64,000 nucleotides of DNA. Source: Bdellovibrionales bacterium (GTDB lineage: Bacteria; Bdellovibrionota; UBA1018). The stretch lies in NCBI GenBank assembly GCA_016786465.1, contig JAEUWC010000030.1, forward strand, positions 186,001-250,000. The letters run 5' to 3'. A program made the translations under genes and the position numbers. Position 1 is the first letter of the stretch; each line of letters opens with the position of its first letter. The notes beneath the pieces were generated by a model. It did no database searches. It was not told the DNA's origin and saw nothing but the letters and a program-made list of their open reading frames with translations. Below, in pieces: positions 27,163-37,708 of the stretch.

Positions 27163-27747
27163 TTACTCATCCTTGGCAATTGTACCGAGGTTCAATTCGA
27201 TCCCGAGCGTCGCTCCAAAAAAATGCATGGGCCTTCCGCCTGCAAATGTAAGACTTGAATTTCCTTCAATCTGAAATGATACCGTAGGCCCCTTATGTAG
27301 GTATAGACCCAAGGCCGTATTTTGACCGATACCAGTTGACTTGAAGACGATATTTCCACTTCGGTCCTTCGTGGATCTAGGAGCAAGCCCAGCGCCAATG
27401 CGAAGATAGGAAATGTTGTTTAGGTTTCGTTGGTAGTCTAGTGAGTAGGTTCCAGTTGAAACTTGGGCCTTGGAAACCATATCCGCATCTGAAAATACCG
27501 TTATTCCGATCCCGATCGAGTTATTTTGAGAAAGCACATACCTAACGTTTATAGCACCAGCGATTTGAAGGTGGTTGCCTTGGAACTCTTGACCCGTTGT
27601 GCCTAGGTCTTCGGGCTTGTACAAAATCCTGCCAGTACCGCCCGAAAGTCGAACAGCCCAAGAAGACGGCTCTGCAATAGCAGAGCTCGAGACGAACAAC
27701 ATTACGGAGCCCGATAGAAACAGAATATTTTTCTTTATCACTTTCAA
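27163..27747 (-). CDS. secreted beta-rich protein coupled to the RHS gene
   Basis: 194 residues. The likely start is the TTG at 27747, which overlaps the stop of the giant RHS gene (TTGA) and follows GAGGT at a good distance; a GTG at 27741 is an alternative, and the longer frame lies inside the RHS gene. The signal peptide is KKNILFLSGSVMLFVSSSAI with cleavage near AIA. The rest resembles a small barrel-like protein (LRIGAGLAPRSTKDR, HFFGATLGIELNLG). Its tight coupling to the RHS gene suggests co-production, perhaps as a surface partner. Confidence 0.6.
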   Translation of the reverse strand: MKVIKKNILFLSGSVMLFVSSSAIAEPSSWAVRLSGGTGRILYKPEDLGTTGQEFQGNHLQIAGAINVRYVLSQNNSIGIGITVFSDADMVSKAQVSTGTYSLDYQRNLNNISYLRIGAGLAPRSTKDRSGNIVFKSTGIGQNTALGLYLHKGPTVSFQIEGNSSLTFAGGRPMHFFGATLGIELNLGTIAKDE

Positions 27748-30700
27748 TTGAACCTCGGAATCGGAACCCTTGTTCGTCCGACAAACGGGATATTTCGCTC
27801 TTCGTATGAAATCTGTACGCATCCAGCGCTCCAAGTCGACATTTTCGCCTCAAGTGAGTTCAATATGTAACCTTCAAAGACTGCATTCTCTAGCGAATCG
27901 GCACACTGCTGGGACCCGCCGAGCGAATCTAAATATATATCACTCGCAACTTGGGCAGCGAACCCTCCCTTGAATCCCTCGTTAAAGCCATAACCACCTA
28001 TTTTTCCAAACAAGCCACCGATCGCTCCCGCTTCAAGCGCCTTGGCTCCTTTGATTGCCTTTCGTCCTCCTGAAAATGCCAACTCAAACCCCCCACCAAA
28101 ACGGTAGAGACCAGCAAGACCTATGGCACTTCCTAGCTTTAGATAGTCCCAGTCCGTATTCTGCCCTAAAGAGAACGCAAACGAAAGAATCCCGTATGCG
28201 AGTCCACCCACCATCACAGCTAAGCCGACGATCATTTCTAAGAAAGATCCGGCGATGTTAAGTATTCCTTCGAAGAAATCTCCTATCCACGACTTTCCGG
28301 TAGGGTCCACAAGACCTGTTGGTAGATTCTTTACATAGCTGTAGTTATTCACGACCGATGCCGGAATCGTTGAAAGTCCCGGCTCCGGATCCTTCTGCAA
28401 AAACCTACCGATGTTCGGATCGTAATAACGTGCCCGGTAATAGTAGTTCCCAGTTTCTTCATCGTATTCGCGACCCGTGAATGCAAAATGCGTTTTAAGA
28501 ACGGGACTGCTGGTCACGTCATTCGCGTTTGCGTCGCGAATGCTTAGGATTTTTCCAAATGTGGCGTAGACCACGCGCTGAACCAAGTGTCCGCCCGAAT
28601 TCGTGACTTCAGTCACAGATCCAAGCCCGTCTTTAACGAAGTGATAGCTGCCGCTAGTCTGTGCAAGTCCTTTAGTTTGGCCGTAACTTGTCACATTCAC
28701 GGAAAGCACATCATCAACGACTTGATCGCTTGGGTTCAGTCTATGCGTGTAGCTGGCTAAGATTTGGTTTCCTTCATCCAGTTCGGTGATCAGGTCTTGT
28801 CCGTCGTAAACGTAGCGACGGGTTAGACTGTTGATCGCGTTTTGGTGATCAATGACCTGTTTTTCAACCCTGCGACCCATGGGGTCGTAGAAGTAATAGA
28901 TTTCTTTCACGGGAACGGCAGTGCCGATCACAAAGAACTGACTTTGCGGCGCACCAGGAGCAAACACTTTCACCGACTTCAGTTGGTTTTCACTGGTGTA
29001 GGCAAAGCTAGTGACTTCGCCGGTAAGTCCTTTGGCTTGTTTTGAAATCAAGTTTCCGTTTTCGTCATAAAAGTAGAAGTTTCTGTAGTCTTCCGTCAAC
29101 TGCTGGGATTTCAGATCGTAGGCGTAAGTGCCCCCGTGATCCTGTTTGCGATTGTGGATTTCGTCATAATCGTAAGATTCATTTGGAACCAAACCGGTGT
29201 TGCTTGAAGCAGATGATGTCAGTTGTTGGTTTTTGTCATAGCCCAACGTTAAGTTCGAAATCCCAGAACGGTTGACACCGGTTCTTAGACCGCTTAGGTC
29301 GCGGTCATAGCCCACCACCAGATTTAAGCTGCTGCCGCTCAAGCCCGTATGGGTAATCGTTTTCAGAAAGCTTCCGTCATCAAACGAAAGCACGGTCTGC
29401 GATCCAGGGCGGGTGCGCCTGCTTTCACGGCCCAAAAGATCGTATTCAAAAGTGAACGCTTCTGACTTTTCATTCGTGACCTTCTTGATTCGTGAATACG
29501 AATCGTATTCATAGTCGATGGTTCCTGAAGGCGTAGTCATCGATTTTCTACGATCAAATTCGTCATAACTGAATGCCAGGGTAACGTCTGGGTGCGACGA
29601 CTTTAGCCCTTGTCCGTGTGATTGAATGCTTTGAACCAAGCGGTTTTCAGAATCTAGGTTGATTTGAACCGAATAGTTCTGATTAGAAAGAAACTTCAGA
29701 TTTCCTTGGCCGTCATATGTAAAGTCATATTGATCGTCTGGAAGGATCTTGGATTCGATCTGGTTTCTGTTGTTGTAAGTGAACCGCTTGATGTTTCCAT
29801 TTGGATCCTTTTCATAATTCAGGTTTCCAGAATCGTCGTACTGGTAGGTATAAACTTTTCCCAGCTGGTCGACTTTTTCTTCAAGCTGATCCAAAGAATT
29901 ATAATTATACGTAATCAGATTTGCCTTAGCATCCTTCACTTGGGTCAATTTTCCCGTGAATGAATAGGTGTATTCAGTTCTTTCGTTTTCGGCACTGATC
30001 ACCGCGGTTAGGCGGTTCCAGTCGTCGTATTCATAGGTTGTCACATCGCCGTTTGGATTCTTTGCCGTTAGAATATTTCCGGCATCATCACGCGTGTAGA
30101 CGACCTTAGCTTTTCGACTTGAATCAATGGGTGTTTCCTGGGTTTCTAGGTTCCCCTTTTGGTCATAGGTGAAATCGGAAACCTTTCCGTGCGCGTCCGT
30201 TTTTCGGGTTGGAAGCTTCAGAGGGTGAGCATAGGTAACACTTCCCAGAATTCCGTTCACCGAATCTCGAGTTTCAGTTTCAAGCCCGGTGACGGGGTCA
30301 TAGACGTGGGTGACAGTAATGCCCGTGATTGATTTTTCAGTCAGGGTCTGTCCAAAGGAATTGTAGGTTCTTGTTTCGGTATGACCGGTTGCTGAATCTA
30401 CTTTAGACAGAAGGTCGCCTGTGACGCTGTCGTACGTAAACGTGACCTTGCTTTCGAAAGTATCGTCGCGGTCGTCTTCAGCAGTGCCGTTGTCTTTGAA
30501 ATCCTTGTAGATGACCAAAGGCTGACCCTTGGAATTGCGGTCGATTTTGGTCACGATCCCGTTCGGATCCTTGATGATTGAAATGTAGCCCTTCGCATCG
30601 GGTTTCATCGTTACTTTGATATTTCTAGGGTCGGTGACTTCGTTCTGAGTGCCTTCTTGTTTCTGTGGCTTGATCTGACCGGCATTGCCCGCCGTGTAGC

Positions 30701-33700
30701 CATTTGCAACCGTTCCGGAAGCGACGTCAAAAAGCGTGATCGCTTTTCCGTCCGGACGAATCACCTTCGATAAGCGCCCGACGTTATTGTACTGATACTG
30801 CGTCGTATATCCATTCGCGTTGGTTTCTGATTCAATACGACCGCTGCCATCGGTTGCATAACCAAAGGAACGCGTCGTTTGGTCTGGGAACTTGACCGAT
30901 TGCAGGTAGTTTCCTACATGGTTTAAGTAGGTGATTCTTCCTGCGGGATCTTCAATTTCCGAAAGTTTCCCGCCGGTATAACGATACTGGATCATCCTTC
31001 CGGTCGGGTCCGTTTGCGATTTCAAAAGGTGATTTGAATCATAGGCGTAGCTGACCGTACGGCCCGTGCGGGTAGTCACACTGGTTTCAAATCCATCTGC
31101 ATCAAAGTTTTGAACCGTTCCGTCGCGAAGGGTACGGGTGAAGCTTCCGGTGGTACGATCTCGAGCCATCAAAGTGTTGTCTTCAGCAGTCGGGGAATAG
31201 GTCAGCGGGGTCGATGTAGAACGGTTGAAAATAACTCGGCGAACTCTTTCATTTTTCGAATCGATGAAAAGCAGATTCTTGTCGGGATCCAGTGCCAAGG
31301 CCATGGGCGCATTCAATTGGGCGTCTAAGGCCGAGCGCTTGTCACCGTTAAACCCAGGTGTTCCGTTACCAGCAACCGCCCATGCCGTGTTGCCGCCAAA
31401 CGATACGTCAAACGCGACAATACGATGGTATCCGGTGTCAGAAACGTAAAGGGTTGCGTTTTCTTCGTCCAAGACGATCGACCTAGGTTCCTTAAGGGCA
31501 AAAGTCGAAGAAGGACCCTGGTTGCTGAAAATCGCATCAGGATCATTCCATGGCCGACCCGCGATCGTCGTAATGATTCCCCCGGTGTCAACCAGGCGAA
31601 TATAGCCTTCTTCTGTCAGAATGATCAGCCGGCCACCGGAATCATATTGAAGTGAAACAGGATTCACCAGTGATGACTGGGACGCGGGGACACCGTCTGT
31701 CTTGGCCACCGTTTGCTGGTTGCCAGCGATGACCAACGTCGCGCCGGTCGACAAGTCGATTTCGATGACCCGGTGGTTACCCGTGTCCGCAATAGCGACT
31801 ACTGACCGGAAGGGGTGTTGTGCCAAGCCACCAGGACGGTTTAACAGGAAATCCGATGCTAGCGATCCAGTGCTGCCATTTTTAAAGGCACCCGGAAGTG
31901 GGTAGTGACCTTCAGAACTTCTGTGTCCAGAAATTCGGCCGCTAAAGTTACAGGTAACTCCAAGTGCAGAATTGCAATAGGCGCTTTGAATGAAGTTCAA
32001 TGCGCCAGCGGGGTTTTCTTGCCCGCCAAAAGAAGTCGGCGGAACCGTCGTTCCTCCGGCAAGCAAACCAGAAAGATCACCCGGATTTGCAGATAAGTGG
32101 ACCGTATGAAATTTTGCGGAAGTCGTGATCAAACGTCCGTCCGGAAGCCCTAATGCATCGCTTGGAAGTCTGGGAGCAAAGTAACCCGTTTCGATATGTG
32201 CAGGTGTCCTTGAAGTACACAGAAAACCGCAGGATTGAACATGAGTCCAGTTGTGTCGAATAATTCCGTCGGTGTTTGGAAGTGTGGTTGCCAGATTTGA
32301 CACAGTTGAAGGGTTTGACAAATCCATTGAGCCAATCGCGTAACGACCGGAAACTAGGTTTCTGCGAAGACCAAGTAGGTTTGGCCACTGGATTCTTCCG
32401 AAATCCGTAACTGTCATGTCAGTTGAAGCAGTATTGACGACCGTCGAGATCGAATTTTCGATCGAATAGGTCGAAACCCTTCCGTCGCTTTCTTCAATCA
32501 TCAATTTGTTTTCAGTAGGGTTGACGATCCGCGCAGGGCCCTGAACCTTCCAGCCTTGGCCGATGGCGGAATTCATTTTGTTTTGAACAAAGATCTGACC
32601 CGAAAAGTCGCTTGGAGCATACTGCGTGAACGAATTATCAAAAACTTCTTTTCCGGAATTCACTAGTGGACCAAACAAAGAATACTTCTTTTTCCGTTTT
32701 TGAACGGTGACCAGGTTGATGTGACGAAGGTAAACGTCCCAATGCGAAATGTAGGGATAGACGCCGCTTTGAAGGTGACCCAGATCGAAATTAAACGAAA
32801 TTGCGGATTCGCGAGGAACACCGGTCACGGGCATCTTTTCTGAAAGAACGCCGGTGGTTTGAAAGGTGGCTTCGATTTTTTCTGGAACGATCTGGTAAAA
32901 GGTACTGACAGTGGGTGACGGGTCAAAAAAGAAAACCAATTTTTGCAAAATGGTTTGCCCTTGTACAACCTGCATTGAAGCTTGGACCGAAGGCAAGGTA
33001 ATCAGGTTTGTCGTTGTTACGGTCGGTGCCGCCCAGCGGCTGTTGTAAATCAGCCCAGGCGCCACATCGGCGCCCAGAACCTTGTAGCTTGGAAGATCGA
33101 CTTGAGCGGTTAAGCCGCCATCAAAAGTAGTCGTTCCAGGCTTATCCTGCGCACCCATCTGGCTCACCTGAATTCCGGGTGGCACTGCATAGATCTGCGA
33201 AAAGTGACTGATGCCCATTCCAGGTTTGGTCTTCACGCTTTGGCCATCAGGGGTGACGACCGCGACGCCGTCTGGTGCCCAAGATCCGGTCTTTGAATCA
33301 AATGAAAAGATCAAAAGATTTGCTCCGGCGGGTAGCTCGTTATCGTTTGGAAGAGTCACATCGATGCGTTTGCTAAAAACCATGCCTGAAGGTTCTAGGT
33401 TCAAGACTTGGTCTGGAACCGCGAATTCAGGAACTTCCGCGCTGGATTTTTTGGCATCAACAAAACCCATCGAAAATTCAATCGGCGTGTTTCCTGCACT
33501 AGTCATTGCATCGGCAGGAATTTCAAGTGAAACGCCAGGAGCATGTGGACTAGTGACGGTTCCACCTTGGGAAGGTGTGACTGCCACCGCAGTGCCGTCC
33601 TGAAGTACTGGCGGCAAATAGATCGGACGCTGAAGCGCATTGGTTTGATTCAGACCCACTGAAATCTTAAGGCTTGTGTTGGTGAACTTTCGTGAAGTGC

Positions 33701-36104
33701 AGGTGGTGCATGGATCTGTGACCTGCGATCCGTCAACCAGAAGGGTTTGATCACCCGTTACTTTTTGCGTGATGATGAAGATTCCAGCCGCATTGGTCAT
33801 GACCGGATTGATGTCGGCACGCCCTGAAATCGAGACCTTGGCGTTGGGTAGCGGACGATCTTCTGTATCGAGAACGACACCAGAAAGTAGAGTCGTTGAA
33901 TTGTAAGAAAGATCAATCGATTCGCTTCGGGGTTCGCTTGGACTAACAGCCGTCAAGCGTGCAGAAGTAAAATAGGGTGATTCGATCAAGAAGGTTCCGT
34001 CACTTGCGGCCGTGGCGGTGAACTGGCTAAAGAATCCTACACGTAGGGTCAGGCTAGATCCGGCATACGCCGCCCCTGGCATCCCTTGAACCATCAGCTT
34101 TGTTGGGTCATCTGGAAGCGGCTGAATAACGACCAAGGCCGCTTGAAGAATTGAAAGATTGATGCTGACTGGGACTGAAAACGAAGTCGCGTTTCCCGCA
34201 AGGTCCGTGATGATTCCGGCAAGAACATAAGGACCCTGGCCGATCGCCGTTTCAATTCCACTAAAGGATTTTCCGTCACCCGACAAAGACAGCTGCTTTG
34301 TATTCAGTACGGCCTGTGAAAGTACTTCGTTTACCGATCCATTAACTGGGAAGCTTAGGGTCGCGATACTTGCGCCAGAAGTCGGCGAAAATCCCGTCAA
34401 AACGGGCGCGACCGTATCCAAGGTCACCATCGCAAGATCTCGCGACGATGTCAGTCCGACCGCATCCGTTGATTCGATCTTGATTGCGTTCATGCCTTCG
34501 GCAAGCGTGGTGGACAACGTAAACGAAAGTGCCGAAGTTTCTTGAACGACTAGACCATTCAAAAAGACTTTCGTATTCACCGATGATTCATCCGTCACCG
34601 TGATCGGTGCGGTGAACTGAACCTGGTTGGTCAGTATCGGCGAATCCGGCCCACCTGCAATCACAGGCGCCGTCACATCGGGGCTTACGTCGACTTGGGT
34701 CGTAAGACGGCGGCGATTACCGGCCATGTCGGTTGCAATCCAAAGCAATGACTTCAATCCAGGAGCACCAAAATCCAAAGACCCTGAAAACGACAATCGG
34801 TCGTTTGACAAAGTCAGCGCCACGGGCGACAGACTTCCGACCGAAACTGAAATCGACGACAGCGCTTCATTCGCCGAACCCGAAACTGGACGAACCCCGC
34901 GCGAAATCATCCAAAAATCAGCGGGTTTCGTGGTCAGTACCGGTGGAACCGTATCCGCACCCGCCACACAATAAGTCACATCAATCGTCGAACTGGGAAG
35001 CCCGGGGCTAGCTAGCTTCACCGAAGCCATTGCACCCGCGCCTGGATCGGCAAGCGTGTAAGGCACTTCCGCGCCATCCAATGTTACAACCACGCTAGCA
35101 GCCGACAGGCCTGCGCGCGCCAGCGTGAAATCCGATTTCAGATTCATCCGAACCGCGGCGCGATTTCCAAGCGCTTCCATTCCGGTGCGGTAATTCGCAT
35201 CCGCCATGTCAATGGTGATCCCACCGGTCGCCTGAACAAATTCCAGGTACCCGTATCCCAGTTCGTTTTCGCCAGCCGACTTTCCGCGTGGGACGGTCGA
35301 AAGATTATTGTAAATGACGGCGGCCGTAACATATGGGCGATCACCCATGAACGAAGCAAGCTTCGAAGCCAAAGCTTCCTTCGTGACCCCCGCGCAGTCC
35401 TTGGCTAGCGCTTTCTTTTCAGCGCCCTGTGGATCAGGAACCGGCGTGACCCCGCTTGGATAAACTGCGCAAATGTCATTTTCATCTGACATGAAGACTG
35501 AAACCAACGCCGCGTCGGTACGGAAAAACCCCTGTGACCGCGCCAAAGCCACACGGTCGGTATCTAAAGCGCGAAGCAGGGAATAGATTCCCATTTCTCC
35601 GCCATCGGATTTCGAATCGTTTGGAATTTCAGATTGCTTCGTTAGCCGATCTTTTAGTTCCGACTGAATCGTCGCTAGCGACATCGATTCAGAATCCAAG
35701 ATCCAAGCTTCATTTTTGTTGCGGCGAAAAATCTTACCCGCCCACTGCGAATGCGGACCATGGGCAGGCATCACGGCGATTCGGTAATCCAAAGTGGACG
35801 GCAACGCGCGAACAAACGCATCCATCGCGTCGGCAAGCTTCCCGCGTTCAGCGTTCAGTGACCCCGACGTATCGACGACCAAAAGCAGGTCTAGTTTTTC
35901 AGTCACAACCGCTTGCGGCTGCGTGAAGCGTTCAACATGGCAGGCCGGAATCTGGGTCACTGGAATCGGCGGGGCAGGGGGCGCGGAAGTGACGCTTGGA
36001 TCAAACGAATCGGAAACGATCTGCCGATCGGTCGAAGTCAGTTCGCAACCGGTAGCAGCAAAAGCCAAGCCGACCCATAAAAGCGGTAAACGATTGAAAC
36101 TCAT
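27744..36104 (-). CDS. giant lipoprotein with vWA, Ig-like, NHL and RHS/YD repeats
   Basis: 2786 residues, the largest gene of the window. The signal MSFNRLPLLWVGLAFAATG is followed by Cys20. Next come a vWA domain with the MIDAS motif LLLVVDTSGSLN (about 73-84), several Ig-like modules (about 380-650), a carboxypeptidase-regulatory-like domain near 730, a ZU5-like segment near 830-970, NHL-type propeller repeats around 1440-1600, and long YD/RHS repeats (about 1640-2560; YEYDDWNRLTAVI, YTYQYDDSGNLNYEKDPNG). The RHS core motif is GREYDEETGNYYYRARYYDP then GRFLQKDP. After DPTG only about 183 residues follow, partly hydrophobic and with no toxin fold I recognise. Likely a lipid-anchored shell or adhesin at the cell surface. 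Confidence 0.92.
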   Translation of the reverse strand: MSFNRLPLLWVGLAFAATGCELTSTDRQIVSDSFDPSVTSAPPAPPIPVTQIPACHVERFTQPQAVVTEKLDLLLVVDTSGSLNAERGKLADAMDAFVRALPSTLDYRIAVMPAHGPHSQWAGKIFRRNKNEAWILDSESMSLATIQSELKDRLTKQSEIPNDSKSDGGEMGIYSLLRALDTDRVALARSQGFFRTDAALVSVFMSDENDICAVYPSGVTPVPDPQGAEKKALAKDCAGVTKEALASKLASFMGDRPYVTAAVIYNNLSTVPRGKSAGENELGYGYLEFVQATGGITIDMADANYRTGMEALGNRAAVRMNLKSDFTLARAGLSAASVVVTLDGAEVPYTLADPGAGAMASVKLASPGLPSSTIDVTYCVAGADTVPPVLTTKPADFWMISRGVRPVSGSANEALSSISVSVGSLSPVALTLSNDRLSFSGSLDFGAPGLKSLLWIATDMAGNRRRLTTQVDVSPDVTAPVIAGGPDSPILTNQVQFTAPITVTDESSVNTKVFLNGLVVQETSALSFTLSTTLAEGMNAIKIESTDAVGLTSSRDLAMVTLDTVAPVLTGFSPTSGASIATLSFPVNGSVNEVLSQAVLNTKQLSLSGDGKSFSGIETAIGQGPYVLAGIITDLAGNATSFSVPVSINLSILQAALVVIQPLPDDPTKLMVQGMPGAAYAGSSLTLRVGFFSQFTATAASDGTFLIESPYFTSARLTAVSPSEPRSESIDLSYNSTTLLSGVVLDTEDRPLPNAKVSISGRADINPVMTNAAGIFIITQKVTGDQTLLVDGSQVTDPCTTCTSRKFTNTSLKISVGLNQTNALQRPIYLPPVLQDGTAVAVTPSQGGTVTSPHAPGVSLEIPADAMTSAGNTPIEFSMGFVDAKKSSAEVPEFAVPDQVLNLEPSGMVFSKRIDVTLPNDNELPAGANLLIFSFDSKTGSWAPDGVAVVTPDGQSVKTKPGMGISHFSQIYAVPPGIQVSQMGAQDKPGTTTFDGGLTAQVDLPSYKVLGADVAPGLIYNSRWAAPTVTTTNLITLPSVQASMQVVQGQTILQKLVFFFDPSPTVSTFYQIVPEKIEATFQTTGVLSEKMPVTGVPRESAISFNFDLGHLQSGVYPYISHWDVYLRHINLVTVQKRKKKYSLFGPLVNSGKEVFDNSFTQYAPSDFSGQIFVQNKMNSAIGQGWKVQGPARIVNPTENKLMIEESDGRVSTYSIENSISTVVNTASTDMTVTDFGRIQWPNLLGLRRNLVSGRYAIGSMDLSNPSTVSNLATTLPNTDGIIRHNWTHVQSCGFLCTSRTPAHIETGYFAPRLPSDALGLPDGRLITTSAKFHTVHLSANPGDLSGLLAGGTTVPPTSFGGQENPAGALNFIQSAYCNSALGVTCNFSGRISGHRSSEGHYPLPGAFKNGSTGSLASDFLLNRPGGLAQHPFRSVVAIADTGNHRVIEIDLSTGATLVIAGNQQTVAKTDGVPASQSSLVNPVSLQYDSGGRLIILTEEGYIRLVDTGGIITTIAGRPWNDPDAIFSNQGPSSTFALKEPRSIVLDEENATLYVSDTGYHRIVAFDVSFGGNTAWAVAGNGTPGFNGDKRSALDAQLNAPMALALDPDKNLLFIDSKNERVRRVIFNRSTSTPLTYSPTAEDNTLMARDRTTGSFTRTLRDGTVQNFDADGFETSVTTRTGRTVSYAYDSNHLLKSQTDPTGRMIQYRYTGGKLSEIEDPAGRITYLNHVGNYLQSVKFPDQTTRSFGYATDGSGRIESETNANGYTTQYQYNNVGRLSKVIRPDGKAITLFDVASGTVANGYTAGNAGQIKPQKQEGTQNEVTDPRNIKVTMKPDAKGYISIIKDPNGIVTKIDRNSKGQPLVIYKDFKDNGTAEDDRDDTFESKVTFTYDSVTGDLLSKVDSATGHTETRTYNSFGQTLTEKSITGITVTHVYDPVTGLETETRDSVNGILGSVTYAHPLKLPTRKTDAHGKVSDFTYDQKGNLETQETPIDSSRKAKVVYTRDDAGNILTAKNPNGDVTTYEYDDWNRLTAVISAENERTEYTYSFTGKLTQVKDAKANLITYNYNSLDQLEEKVDQLGKVYTYQYDDSGNLNYEKDPNGNIKRFTYNNRNQIESKILPDDQYDFTYDGQGNLKFLSNQNYSVQINLDSENRLVQSIQSHGQGLKSSHPDVTLAFSYDEFDRRKSMTTPSGTIDYEYDSYSRIKKVTNEKSEAFTFEYDLLGRESRRTRPGSQTVLSFDDGSFLKTITHTGLSGSSLNLVVGYDRDLSGLRTGVNRSGISNLTLGYDKNQQLTSSASSNTGLVPNESYDYDEIHNRKQDHGGTYAYDLKSQQLTEDYRNFYFYDENGNLISKQAKGLTGEVTSFAYTSENQLKSVKVFAPGAPQSQFFVIGTAVPVKEIYYFYDPMGRRVEKQVIDHQNAINSLTRRYVYDGQDLITELDEGNQILASYTHRLNPSDQVVDDVLSVNVTSYGQTKGLAQTSGSYHFVKDGLGSVTEVTNSGGHLVQRVVYATFGKILSIRDANANDVTSSPVLKTHFAFTGREYDEETGNYYYRARYYDPNIGRFLQKDPEPGLSTIPASVVNNYSYVKNLPTGLVDPTGKSWIGDFFEGILNIAGSFLEMIVGLAVMVGGLAYGILSFAFSLGQNTDWDYLKLGSAIGLAGLYRFGGGFELAFSGGRKAIKGAKALEAGAIGGLFGKIGGYGFNEGFKGGFAAQVASDIYLDSLGGSQQCADSLENAVFEGYILNSLEAKMSTWSAGCVQISYEERNIPFVGRTRVPIPRFN

Positions 36105-36240: not shown

Positions 36241-36270
36241 TTTTCCGGACTTTTCTTGAAGTCCGGAAAA
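36241..36270. promoter_or_regulatory. perfect 12-base inverted repeat ahead of the Phd-like gene
   Basis: TTTTCCGGACTT (36241-36252), a 6-base loop and AAGTCCGGAAAA (36259-36270). It lies 24 bases before the proposed GTG start at 36295. Antitoxins of the Phd/YefM type repress their own promoter through inverted repeats, so an operator is the natural reading. It could also act as a terminator hairpin for leftward or rightward transcripts. Confidence 0.5.
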
Positions 36271-36294
36271 GCCAAAGCAACCCCTGGAAAACTT

Positions 36295-36528
36295 GTGAAA
36301 AAAGACCAAAAGTTAAGACCTTCGAAGAAAATTTTCCCCAATCAAAACCTGCGCATGGTCACGGCAACAGAAGCGTCCAAGAAGTTTGGCACCTTATTAG
36401 ATGATGTCGTCTTGGGGAAACAGGCGATCGGCCTGACTTTTCATGGTCGCGTCCGCGCGGTGGTTTTACGGCATGATCAGTTTCAAGCGCTGCTGAAATC
36501 GATGAATCCGGCCAAAGATTCGCCATAG
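36295..36528 (+). CDS. Phd/YefM-type antitoxin-like protein
   Basis: 77 residues from the GTG at 36295 (GGAAAA upstream); an internal ATG at 36355 or the TTG at 36256 are alternatives. The region MVTATEASKKFGTLLDDVV, then LTFHGRVRAVVLRHDQFQALL, has the Phd/YefM fold signature: an N-terminal DNA-binding part, a strand, and an H-x-R-x-A-V strand. The tail is short, and no RelE, Doc or PIN toxin gene follows. Instead an AAA ATPase gene follows after 61 bases on the same strand. Confidence 0.72.
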   Translation: MKKDQKLRPSKKIFPNQNLRMVTATEASKKFGTLLDDVVLGKQAIGLTFHGRVRAVVLRHDQFQALLKSMNPAKDSP

Positions 36529-36530
36529 GG

Positions 36531-36586
36531 TTTTTTTGCTACCTAGCAAAAAAATGTGTTACTATTTTAACTAGGTAGCAAAAAAA
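36531..36586. promoter_or_regulatory. paired palindromic operator-like sites overlapping the ATPase promoter
   Basis: A perfect 16-base inverted repeat at 36531-36546 and 36571-36586 (arms TTTTTTTGCTACCTAG and its complement). The left arm also forms its own 11-2-11 palindrome at 36531-36554. The two CTAG-centred sites are 31 bases apart, about three helical turns. They cover a candidate promoter (TTGCTA at 36536, 18 bases, TACTAT at 36560) and the leader up to the start codon at 36590. Confidence 0.6.
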
Positions 36587-36589
36587 CTA

Positions 36590-37708
36590 ATGAAGCCGAA
36601 ATCGCGATATCTCAATGCACAAATTCAGGACGACCTGAAGCGCAAAATGGTTTTTCTGGGGGGACCTAGGCAGGTCGGAAAGACCACGCTGGCACAAAGT
36701 TTGGCTCGGGACCTAAAGGGCTATTTGAACTGGGACATCCCTGGTCACCGCATGCAGATCTTGAAACGCGAACTTCCCAACACGGAACTTTGGATTTTTG
36801 ACGAAATTCACAAGCACCGTCCTTGGCGAAATTACTTAAAGGGGCTTTTTGATGAATTCAAAGGAACCCGGGAAATCTTAGTCACCGGCAGTGCCCGCTT
36901 GGATCTTTATCGACGAGGCGGTGATTCTCTTCAAGGCCGCTATCACTTTCTTCGGCTTCACCCGCTTTCGCTGGCAGAAATCGCAGGCAGGACGGAAAGC
37001 GATCTTCTGACATTGATGAAACTAGGTGGTTTTCCAGAACCTTTTTTTTCCCAGTCCGAAACCCAGGCAAAACGTTGGTCCAAAGAATATCAGACCCGTG
37101 TGGTGCAGGAAGATATTCGTGACTTAGAACGGGTTCAAGATCTAGGAAATCTGGAACTTCTTTTGCACCGACTTCCCGAACACGTAGGATCCCCGCTTTC
37201 TTTGAATTCTCTTCGCGAAGACTTGCATGTCAGTCATCGAGCCGTCAGCCAGTGGATGGAAATTTTTGATCGGACCTACTGCATCTTTCGGTTGGCGCCA
37301 TTTGGTTCGCCCAAGATTCGGGCCGTAAAGAAAGAACGCAAACACTATCATTTCGATTGGACCCTGATATCCGACGAAGCGCTTCGGTTTGAAAATCTAG
37401 TCGCCGTTCATCTTCAAAAGTGGATTCATTTCCAAGAAGACGTCTACGGGAAAACAATGGAACTTCGCTACTTTCGCGACACGGATCGACGCGAAGTGGA
37501 TTTCGTTGTTCTTGAAAATGGAAAGCCCGTCCAGTTTATCGAATGCAAACTTTCCGACGGGGAAGTGTCGTCAGGCCTAAGGTACCTGAAAGCCAAGTTT
37601 CCTAAAGTCGAATCCATTCAGATTGCCCTGAAGGGCCAAAAAGACGTCGTAACTTCAGACGGGATCAGTCTGATGCCCGCGCATCGCTTTTTGGCGCAGT
37701 TGGTTTAG
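36590..37708 (+). CDS. AAA_14 ATPase with DUF4143 and nuclease-like C-terminus
   Basis: 372 residues. Walker A is FLGGPRQVGKTTLAQSLA (about residues 21-38), Walker B LWIFDEIHKHRPW, followed by the sensor VTGSARLDLYRRGGDSL and RYHFLRLHPLSLAE, all typical of the AAA_14 group. A winged-helix stretch (LSLNSLREDLHVSHRAVSQW) leads into DUF4143, which ends in REVDFVVLENGKPVQFIECK; the D and ExK residues fit a PD-(D/E)xK-like nuclease core. The family is widespread and mobile, with no settled function. Its neighbours are a Phd-like protein and the paired operator-like repeat. Confidence 0.9.
   Translation: MKPKSRYLNAQIQDDLKRKMVFLGGPRQVGKTTLAQSLARDLKGYLNWDIPGHRMQILKRELPNTELWIFDEIHKHRPWRNYLKGLFDEFKGTREILVTGSARLDLYRRGGDSLQGRYHFLRLHPLSLAEIAGRTESDLLTLMKLGGFPEPFFSQSETQAKRWSKEYQTRVVQEDIRDLERVQDLGNLELLLHRLPEHVGSPLSLNSLREDLHVSHRAVSQWMEIFDRTYCIFRLAPFGSPKIRAVKKERKHYHFDWTLISDEALRFENLVAVHLQKWIHFQEDVYGKTMELRYFRDTDRREVDFVVLENGKPVQFIECKLSDGEVSSGLRYLKAKFPKVESIQIALKGQKDVVTSDGISLMPAHRFLAQLV

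Follow-up and report, generated by a model that had tools for sequence, protein, structure and literature searches.

The locus considered here raises the question of what the inverted repeats ahead of two adjacent genes are for, and of whether the two genes, a small Phd/YefM-like ORF and an AAA_14-DUF4143 ATPase, act as a pair. The stretch of DNA analyzed (hereafter the window, 64 kb, G000:C3:186001-250000) is part of a 3.63-Mb draft genome of 30 contigs. Both genes exist where the initial annotation had placed them: the Phd/YefM-like ORF (36295–36528, + strand) encodes 77 aa when counted from a GTG, its start being uncertain between TTG 36256, GTG 36295, and ATG 36356, and the ATPase (36590–37708, + strand; 372 aa), assigned to PDC-S01 by PADLOC, follows on the same strand after 61 bp. 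They are flanked by a reverse-strand YD-repeat gene (27744–36104) and a DUF6941 gene (37782), and since three same-family relatives have the downstream DUF6941-TldD block with neither the Phd-like gene nor the ATPase nearby, the two genes are an accessory insertion. The gene at 27744–36104, directly upstream of the pair and divergent from it, encodes a predicted lipoprotein-like protein of 2,786 aa that has a start resembling VWA and contains repeats of the YD/RHS type, for which a surface or contact-dependent role may be read from its sequence.

When the whole window was scanned for perfect inverted repeats with arms of 11 and a loop of up to 12, only three places were detected, two of which are the repeats preceding the Phd-like gene and the ATPase, in line with the perfect inverted repeat that had been claimed ahead of each gene. 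The further proposal that these repeats are matched did not hold: the pre-Phd repeat (36241–36270; perfect 12-bp arms around a 6-nt center, TTTTCCGGACTT-TTCTTG-AAGTCCGGAAAA) differs in both sequence and geometry from the pre-ATPase repeat (36531–36554; TTTTTTTGCTA-CC-TAGCAAAAAAA) and has no evident partner 32 bp away; it is probably the own operator of the Phd-like gene and is not of the ATPase-operator type. A kinship between the pre-Phd repeat and the operator of one relative (L050), both of which contain TCCGGACTTTTCTTGA, was also considered, but no such 32-bp partner is evident and the two were treated as unrelated. The pre-ATPase repeat is followed, 32 bp further, by a second, imperfect dyad (CTAGGTAG, centered at 36574.5) that was absent from the initial annotation. 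Across the 3.6 Mb of the genome, the pre-ATPase palindrome occurs in perfect form nowhere but at its own gene.

Taken together, the two dyads (centers 36542.5 and 36574.5) in the sequence ahead of the ATPase, GGTTTTTTTGCTACCTAGCAAAAAAATGTGTTACTATTTTAACTAGGTAGCAAAAAAACTAATG, delineate a putative 64-bp operator (36527–36590) made of four 15-bp half-sites in alternating orientation. The left half-site of the first dyad (AGGGTTTTTTTGCTA; 36527–36541, +), as read from the sequence, contains a −35-like TTGCTA (36536–36541), and its right counterpart lies at 36544–36558 (−); the left half-site of the second dyad (36559–36573, +) contains a −10-like TACTAT (36560–36565), and the right one (36576–36590, −) ends on the first letter, A, of the ATPase start codon. 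The length of the half-site follows from the agreement of the four arms, which extends over positions −16 to −2 from the dyad center and falls to background outside, so that four half-sites tile 64 bp. The operator thus overlaps the predicted promoter of the ATPase, the two hexamers of the window having been picked by eye and not listed by the consensus scan. In relatives, the best −35-like hexamers take one of three registers relative to the center of the second dyad (−32, −16, about −4), all of them tied to the lattice of half-sites; these promoter hexamers come from consensus matching and are guesses, supportive only.

To see how far this architecture extends, we drew on 53 GTDB contigs, 55 genomes sampled at order level, 369 sampled at phylum level, and some viral contigs, which together supplied 260 non-redundant relatives. 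The GTDB contigs carrying the closest relatives of the ATPase belong to Bdellovibrionales and Oligoflexia MAGs and to many other phyla, and viral contigs and phage records held distant relatives only (22–32% identity). With the spacing between dyads left free from 25 to 41 bp and the best agreement of the four arms scored, 208 of 251 relatives, spread over many phyla, had their best spacing at exactly 32 bp, as did 86 of the 92 relatives with at least 50% identity. Control regions reached this spacing in about 4–7% of cases (7/130 downstream, 5/134 inside the gene, 23/325 upstream of neighbor genes), and a four-arm score of at least 40 was obtained for 198 of 251 ATPase upstream regions versus 7 of 325 upstream regions of neighbor genes. 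In about 17% of relatives no 32-bp lattice is clear, and all 12 relatives at 20–30% identity lack one. The signal emerged once all four arms were scored jointly: scoring pairs of any palindromes 24–45 bp apart, irrespective of half-site agreement, had given little above shuffled sequences. In one gene present in two of the collections (L009/L058), a single in-frame TAA is found downstream of an operator that is still recognizable.

The spacing of the lattice is shared and its sequence is not, for 190 distinct half-sites are found among 193. The same holds within genomes rich in paralogs, where the mean half-site identity is mostly 0.3–0.6 and where most ATPase matches differ in half-site (genomes G049, G040, G024, and G051), a single pair in G049 being identical over its readable positions. 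Each of these four genomes has 33–40 ATPase matches listed, some of which are fragments of one gene.

If each operator is private, the question becomes which residues read it. Mutual information was computed between half-site bases and protein columns; a first run on 117 sequences was dominated by the nearly invariant base −7, and the analysis was rerun on 193 sequences against a phylogenetic null in which operator positions evolve on the protein tree. Five residue/base pairs exceed the family-wise 95% null maximum (Z = 7.8), namely 218/−4 (Z = 13.8), 298/−13 (12.9), 217/−5 (10.5), 221/−2 (8.7), and 217/−6 (8.0), and since the largest Z in 200 simulated null sets was 10.8, the last three are less secure than 218/−4 and 298/−13. 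Independent contrasts agree with these pairings: C at −13 accompanies K/R298 (12:0), C/G at −4 accompanies A/S218 (15:0), G at −5 accompanies K217 (8:0), and A at −2 accompanies K221 (6:0). A sister test that scored only change versus no change gave nothing beyond Bonferroni. The window itself agrees with this code at R217/G−5, A218/C−4, and T298/G−13, its residue at 221 being Q221.

All five pairs fall in just two places of the protein. In the AlphaFold model (pLDDT 91.5), residues 216–228 form the third helix of a winged helix, that is, the classical recognition helix (encoded, with the preceding turn, by codons 215–228 at 37232–37273, +), and residues 217, 218, and 221, which covary with −6, −5, −4, and −2, sit in its N-terminal half, their order along the helix paralleling the order of the bases in the half-site. 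Residue 298 (codon at 37481–37483, +), which covaries with −13, is at the tip of a beta hairpin in the nuclease domain that leads into the nuclease strand carrying D304. Because every pair maps to the winged helix or to the PD-(D/E)xK loop of the ATPase, it is presumably the ATPase that reads its private operator, and these covariations constitute strong sequence-based evidence that it binds this operator itself with participation of its nuclease domain.

The description of the gene as an AAA_14/DUF4143 ATPase with a PD-(D/E)xK-like end was supported, both Pfam domains scoring above their cut-offs (AAA_14: E = 3e-22, 79.4 bits versus 27; DUF4143: E = 8e-22, 78.2 bits versus 28.1) and the nuclease residues being intact. 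An AAA+ core (about 18–134) is followed by a helical region (135–184), the winged helix (about 185–258), and the PD-(D/E)xK domain (about 259–372), in which the model displays the helix-hairpin-strand-helix order expected of such nucleases. The Walker and nuclease residues K31, D71, D304, E318, and K320 are intact in 190 of the 193 sequences, and the predicted PD-(D/E)xK residues are conserved at 100% (E268) or 99% (D304, E318, and K320). In the second ATPase paralog of the genome (L307:1099-2478, G000:C8), which has a dyad-like element upstream, EVHF and ETT stand in the positions of EVDF and ECK, and the nuclease motif is thereby lost. A PDB sequence search with the ATPase found nothing, and VIA-align of the model retrieved 2qen (PABY2304, Z = 14.3) and 2fna (SSO1545, Z = 13.9), followed by plant NLRs and CED-4 (Z = 11–13). 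The 2qen and 2fna alignments have an rmsd of 3.3–3.5 over 234–241 residues, cover residues 1–262 only, and show 13–15% sequence identity; by these structural matches, the AAA+ core and the winged helix that follows it in the window's ATPase have a STAND-like arrangement. As for the suspected link to defense, the match to the PADLOC PDC-S01 profiles stands (PDLC04790, best E = 3.1e-49; PDLC04787 covering residues 4–369 of 372) and suggests that the ATPase may belong to defense, this role resting on a candidate list.

On this basis, we consider it likely that the locus encodes a single-gene, self-regulating ATPase-nuclease with a private operator over its own promoter. The private operator and its reading by the winged helix and one loop of the nuclease domain are what the sequence statistics show; that the ATPase represses itself through this operator is the most likely mode of regulation, as the overlap with the predicted promoter fits repression, activation being also compatible with it. 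Two dimers or a tetramer would occupy the 64 bp and so obstruct RNA polymerase, and an ATPase potentially active in DNA cutting would thereby be held at a low level. In the least certain steps of this scheme, a signal such as phage or foreign DNA could shift the nucleotide state of the STAND-like module and release the protein from its operator, upon which, speculatively, the gene would be derepressed and the nuclease would act. Private operators would further keep the many paralogs of one genome from silencing each other.

Other readings of these observations deserve consideration. An unlikely one is that the operator serves as a self-tag that locks the ATPase-nuclease off on its own gene. 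If the promoter were then lost, damaged, or taken over, as a phage or a competing element might do, the nuclease would be armed directly; if true, a single gene would act as the guard, with its promoter in the part of the antitoxin. Slightly less plausible still is that the protein mainly regulates transcription, as STAND-type activators or repressors such as MalT and IniR do, and that its nuclease fold only binds DNA. The involvement of a nuclease-domain residue in base specification would agree with this, as would the structural match to ATPases like SSO1545, whose fold has been reported for IniR, but the nuclease triad is almost invariant and, with a perfect site only at its own gene, no regulon is seen. 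It is also rather improbable that the dyads serve a selfish element for cleavage or homing, its PD-(D/E)xK domain cutting any DNA with the recognition site and its gene spreading together with that site. Such an element would account for the outer base −13 being specified by a residue of the nuclease domain, for a patchy distribution with about 60% identity across phyla, and for up to 40 matches listed in one genome; yet the sites lie over the promoter and upstream only, downstream regions being devoid of the spacing signal, no terminal repeats are seen, and the home site would be cut unless protected.

The pairing proposed by the initial annotation, in which the Phd-like protein would neutralize or repress the ATPase as its toxin-antitoxin partner, seems very unlikely. 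It draws on the adjacency of the two genes, 61 bp apart on one strand, and on the genome having just two Phd-like genes, the other of which (L307:7360-7587, − strand) is solitary, below the cut-off, and about 5 kb from the second ATPase. The Phd-like protein of the window is itself a weak Phd/YefM match (PF02604: E = 2.6e-6, 27.5–27.8 bits, under the 29.8-bit cut-off), and the neighborhood check that had been suggested, run on 102 proteins (the neighbor ORFs of about 50 GTDB relatives and the Phd of the window), speaks against a conserved pair: PF02604 is found in three of them, from the window, one further locus, and L029, in which the Phd is followed by its own ParE toxin. Outside the window, a Phd thus adjoins the ATPase at no more than 2 of about 50 loci, no other Phd directly precedes the ATPase among the upstream small ORFs of 109 loci inspected by eye, over 100 loci have the ATPase without a Phd, and the operator between the two genes appears to be read by the ATPase's own residues. 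The ATPase is kept alone with its own operator, and the Phd-like gene is better regarded as a mere neighbor. The other neighbors of ATPase relatives are mixed (transporters, integrase, Fic, PIN, HEPN; in distant plasmid relatives, qatA, hipA-like, VapC, and PIN genes), as expected for accessory or defense genes. Finally, a role of the palindromes in RNA, as hairpins, attenuators, or terminators, which perfect inverted repeats with T/A runs beside a start codon might suggest, is hardly credible when many relatives have the dyads upstream of or over the predicted −35/−10, when the spacing is fixed at 32 bp, three helical turns, and when the bases covary with the recognition helix.

Returning to the self-regulating ATPase-nuclease that we favor, distant relatives hint at other operator geometries. 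A chlamydial plasmid relative (38% identical) retains the 32-bp lattice, and alphaproteobacterial plasmid relatives (~26–28% identity) have three direct repeats spaced by exactly 22 bp, for example ACTTTCAATTGGTC, with 40 (L287), 35 (L290), 32 (L292), 40 (L294), and 29 (L296) matches of 42 possible and shuffled maxima of 24–28. By eye, a single inverted repeat is seen next to or across the start codon in a Thermus (L286) and a Sphingobium (L293) relative. In this small sample, a private operator may be a trait of the whole superfamily, with a clade-specific geometry.

Like the protein studied here, PDC-S01, a PADLOC candidate whose product is an AAA_14-DUF4143 "ATP-binding protein," is a single gene in which an ATPase is fused to a PD-(D/E)xK domain. 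The best structural likeness, limited to residues 1–262, is to SSO1545, PABY2304, STAND/NLR proteins, and CED-4, and we know of no DNA target for the archaeal SSO1545 and PABY2304. Defense genes of the PDC-S01 type were reported as the fourth most common across prokaryotes, validation being pending for most such candidates (PMC12988326), and an Argonaute/plasmid study (PMC4406477) lists a Thermus thermophilus member among the genes whose expression changed. The searchable literature, which does not extend to the source preprint, makes no mention of a private operator or a self-reading winged helix for PDC-S01. IniR, a STAND regulator whose ATPase domain was modeled on SSO1545 (PMC5760070), and Rx1, a DNA-binding NLR (PMC4599002), are AAA+/NB-ARC ATPases that bind DNA, as the window protein does by prediction; IniR has a separate C-terminal DNA-binding domain, whereas here the winged helix beside the ATPase is predicted to read the operator and a nuclease follows. 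AbiEi/Rv2827c antitoxins autoregulate through inverted repeats in their own promoter, Rv2827c with two sets of them (PMC7319586), but there it is the antitoxin that binds, whereas here it would be the effector, with no conserved antitoxin gene. The comparison with Phd/YefM type II antitoxins is confined to an upstream ORF that weakly matches the profile and is not conserved with the ATPase.

AAA_14/DUF4143 genes (PDC-S01) are among the commonest reported candidate defense genes of prokaryotes and have had no mechanism so far. Our observations would give each of these proteins a predicted DNA ligand, deducible directly from the sequence upstream of its gene, and the four-residue recognition code, together with a large natural set of protein–operator pairs, makes this function directly testable in vitro. 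They would also bring together a nuclease and a winged helix that reads DNA within a STAND/NLR-like scaffold, in which the effector itself, and not a separate antitoxin, would control the gene.
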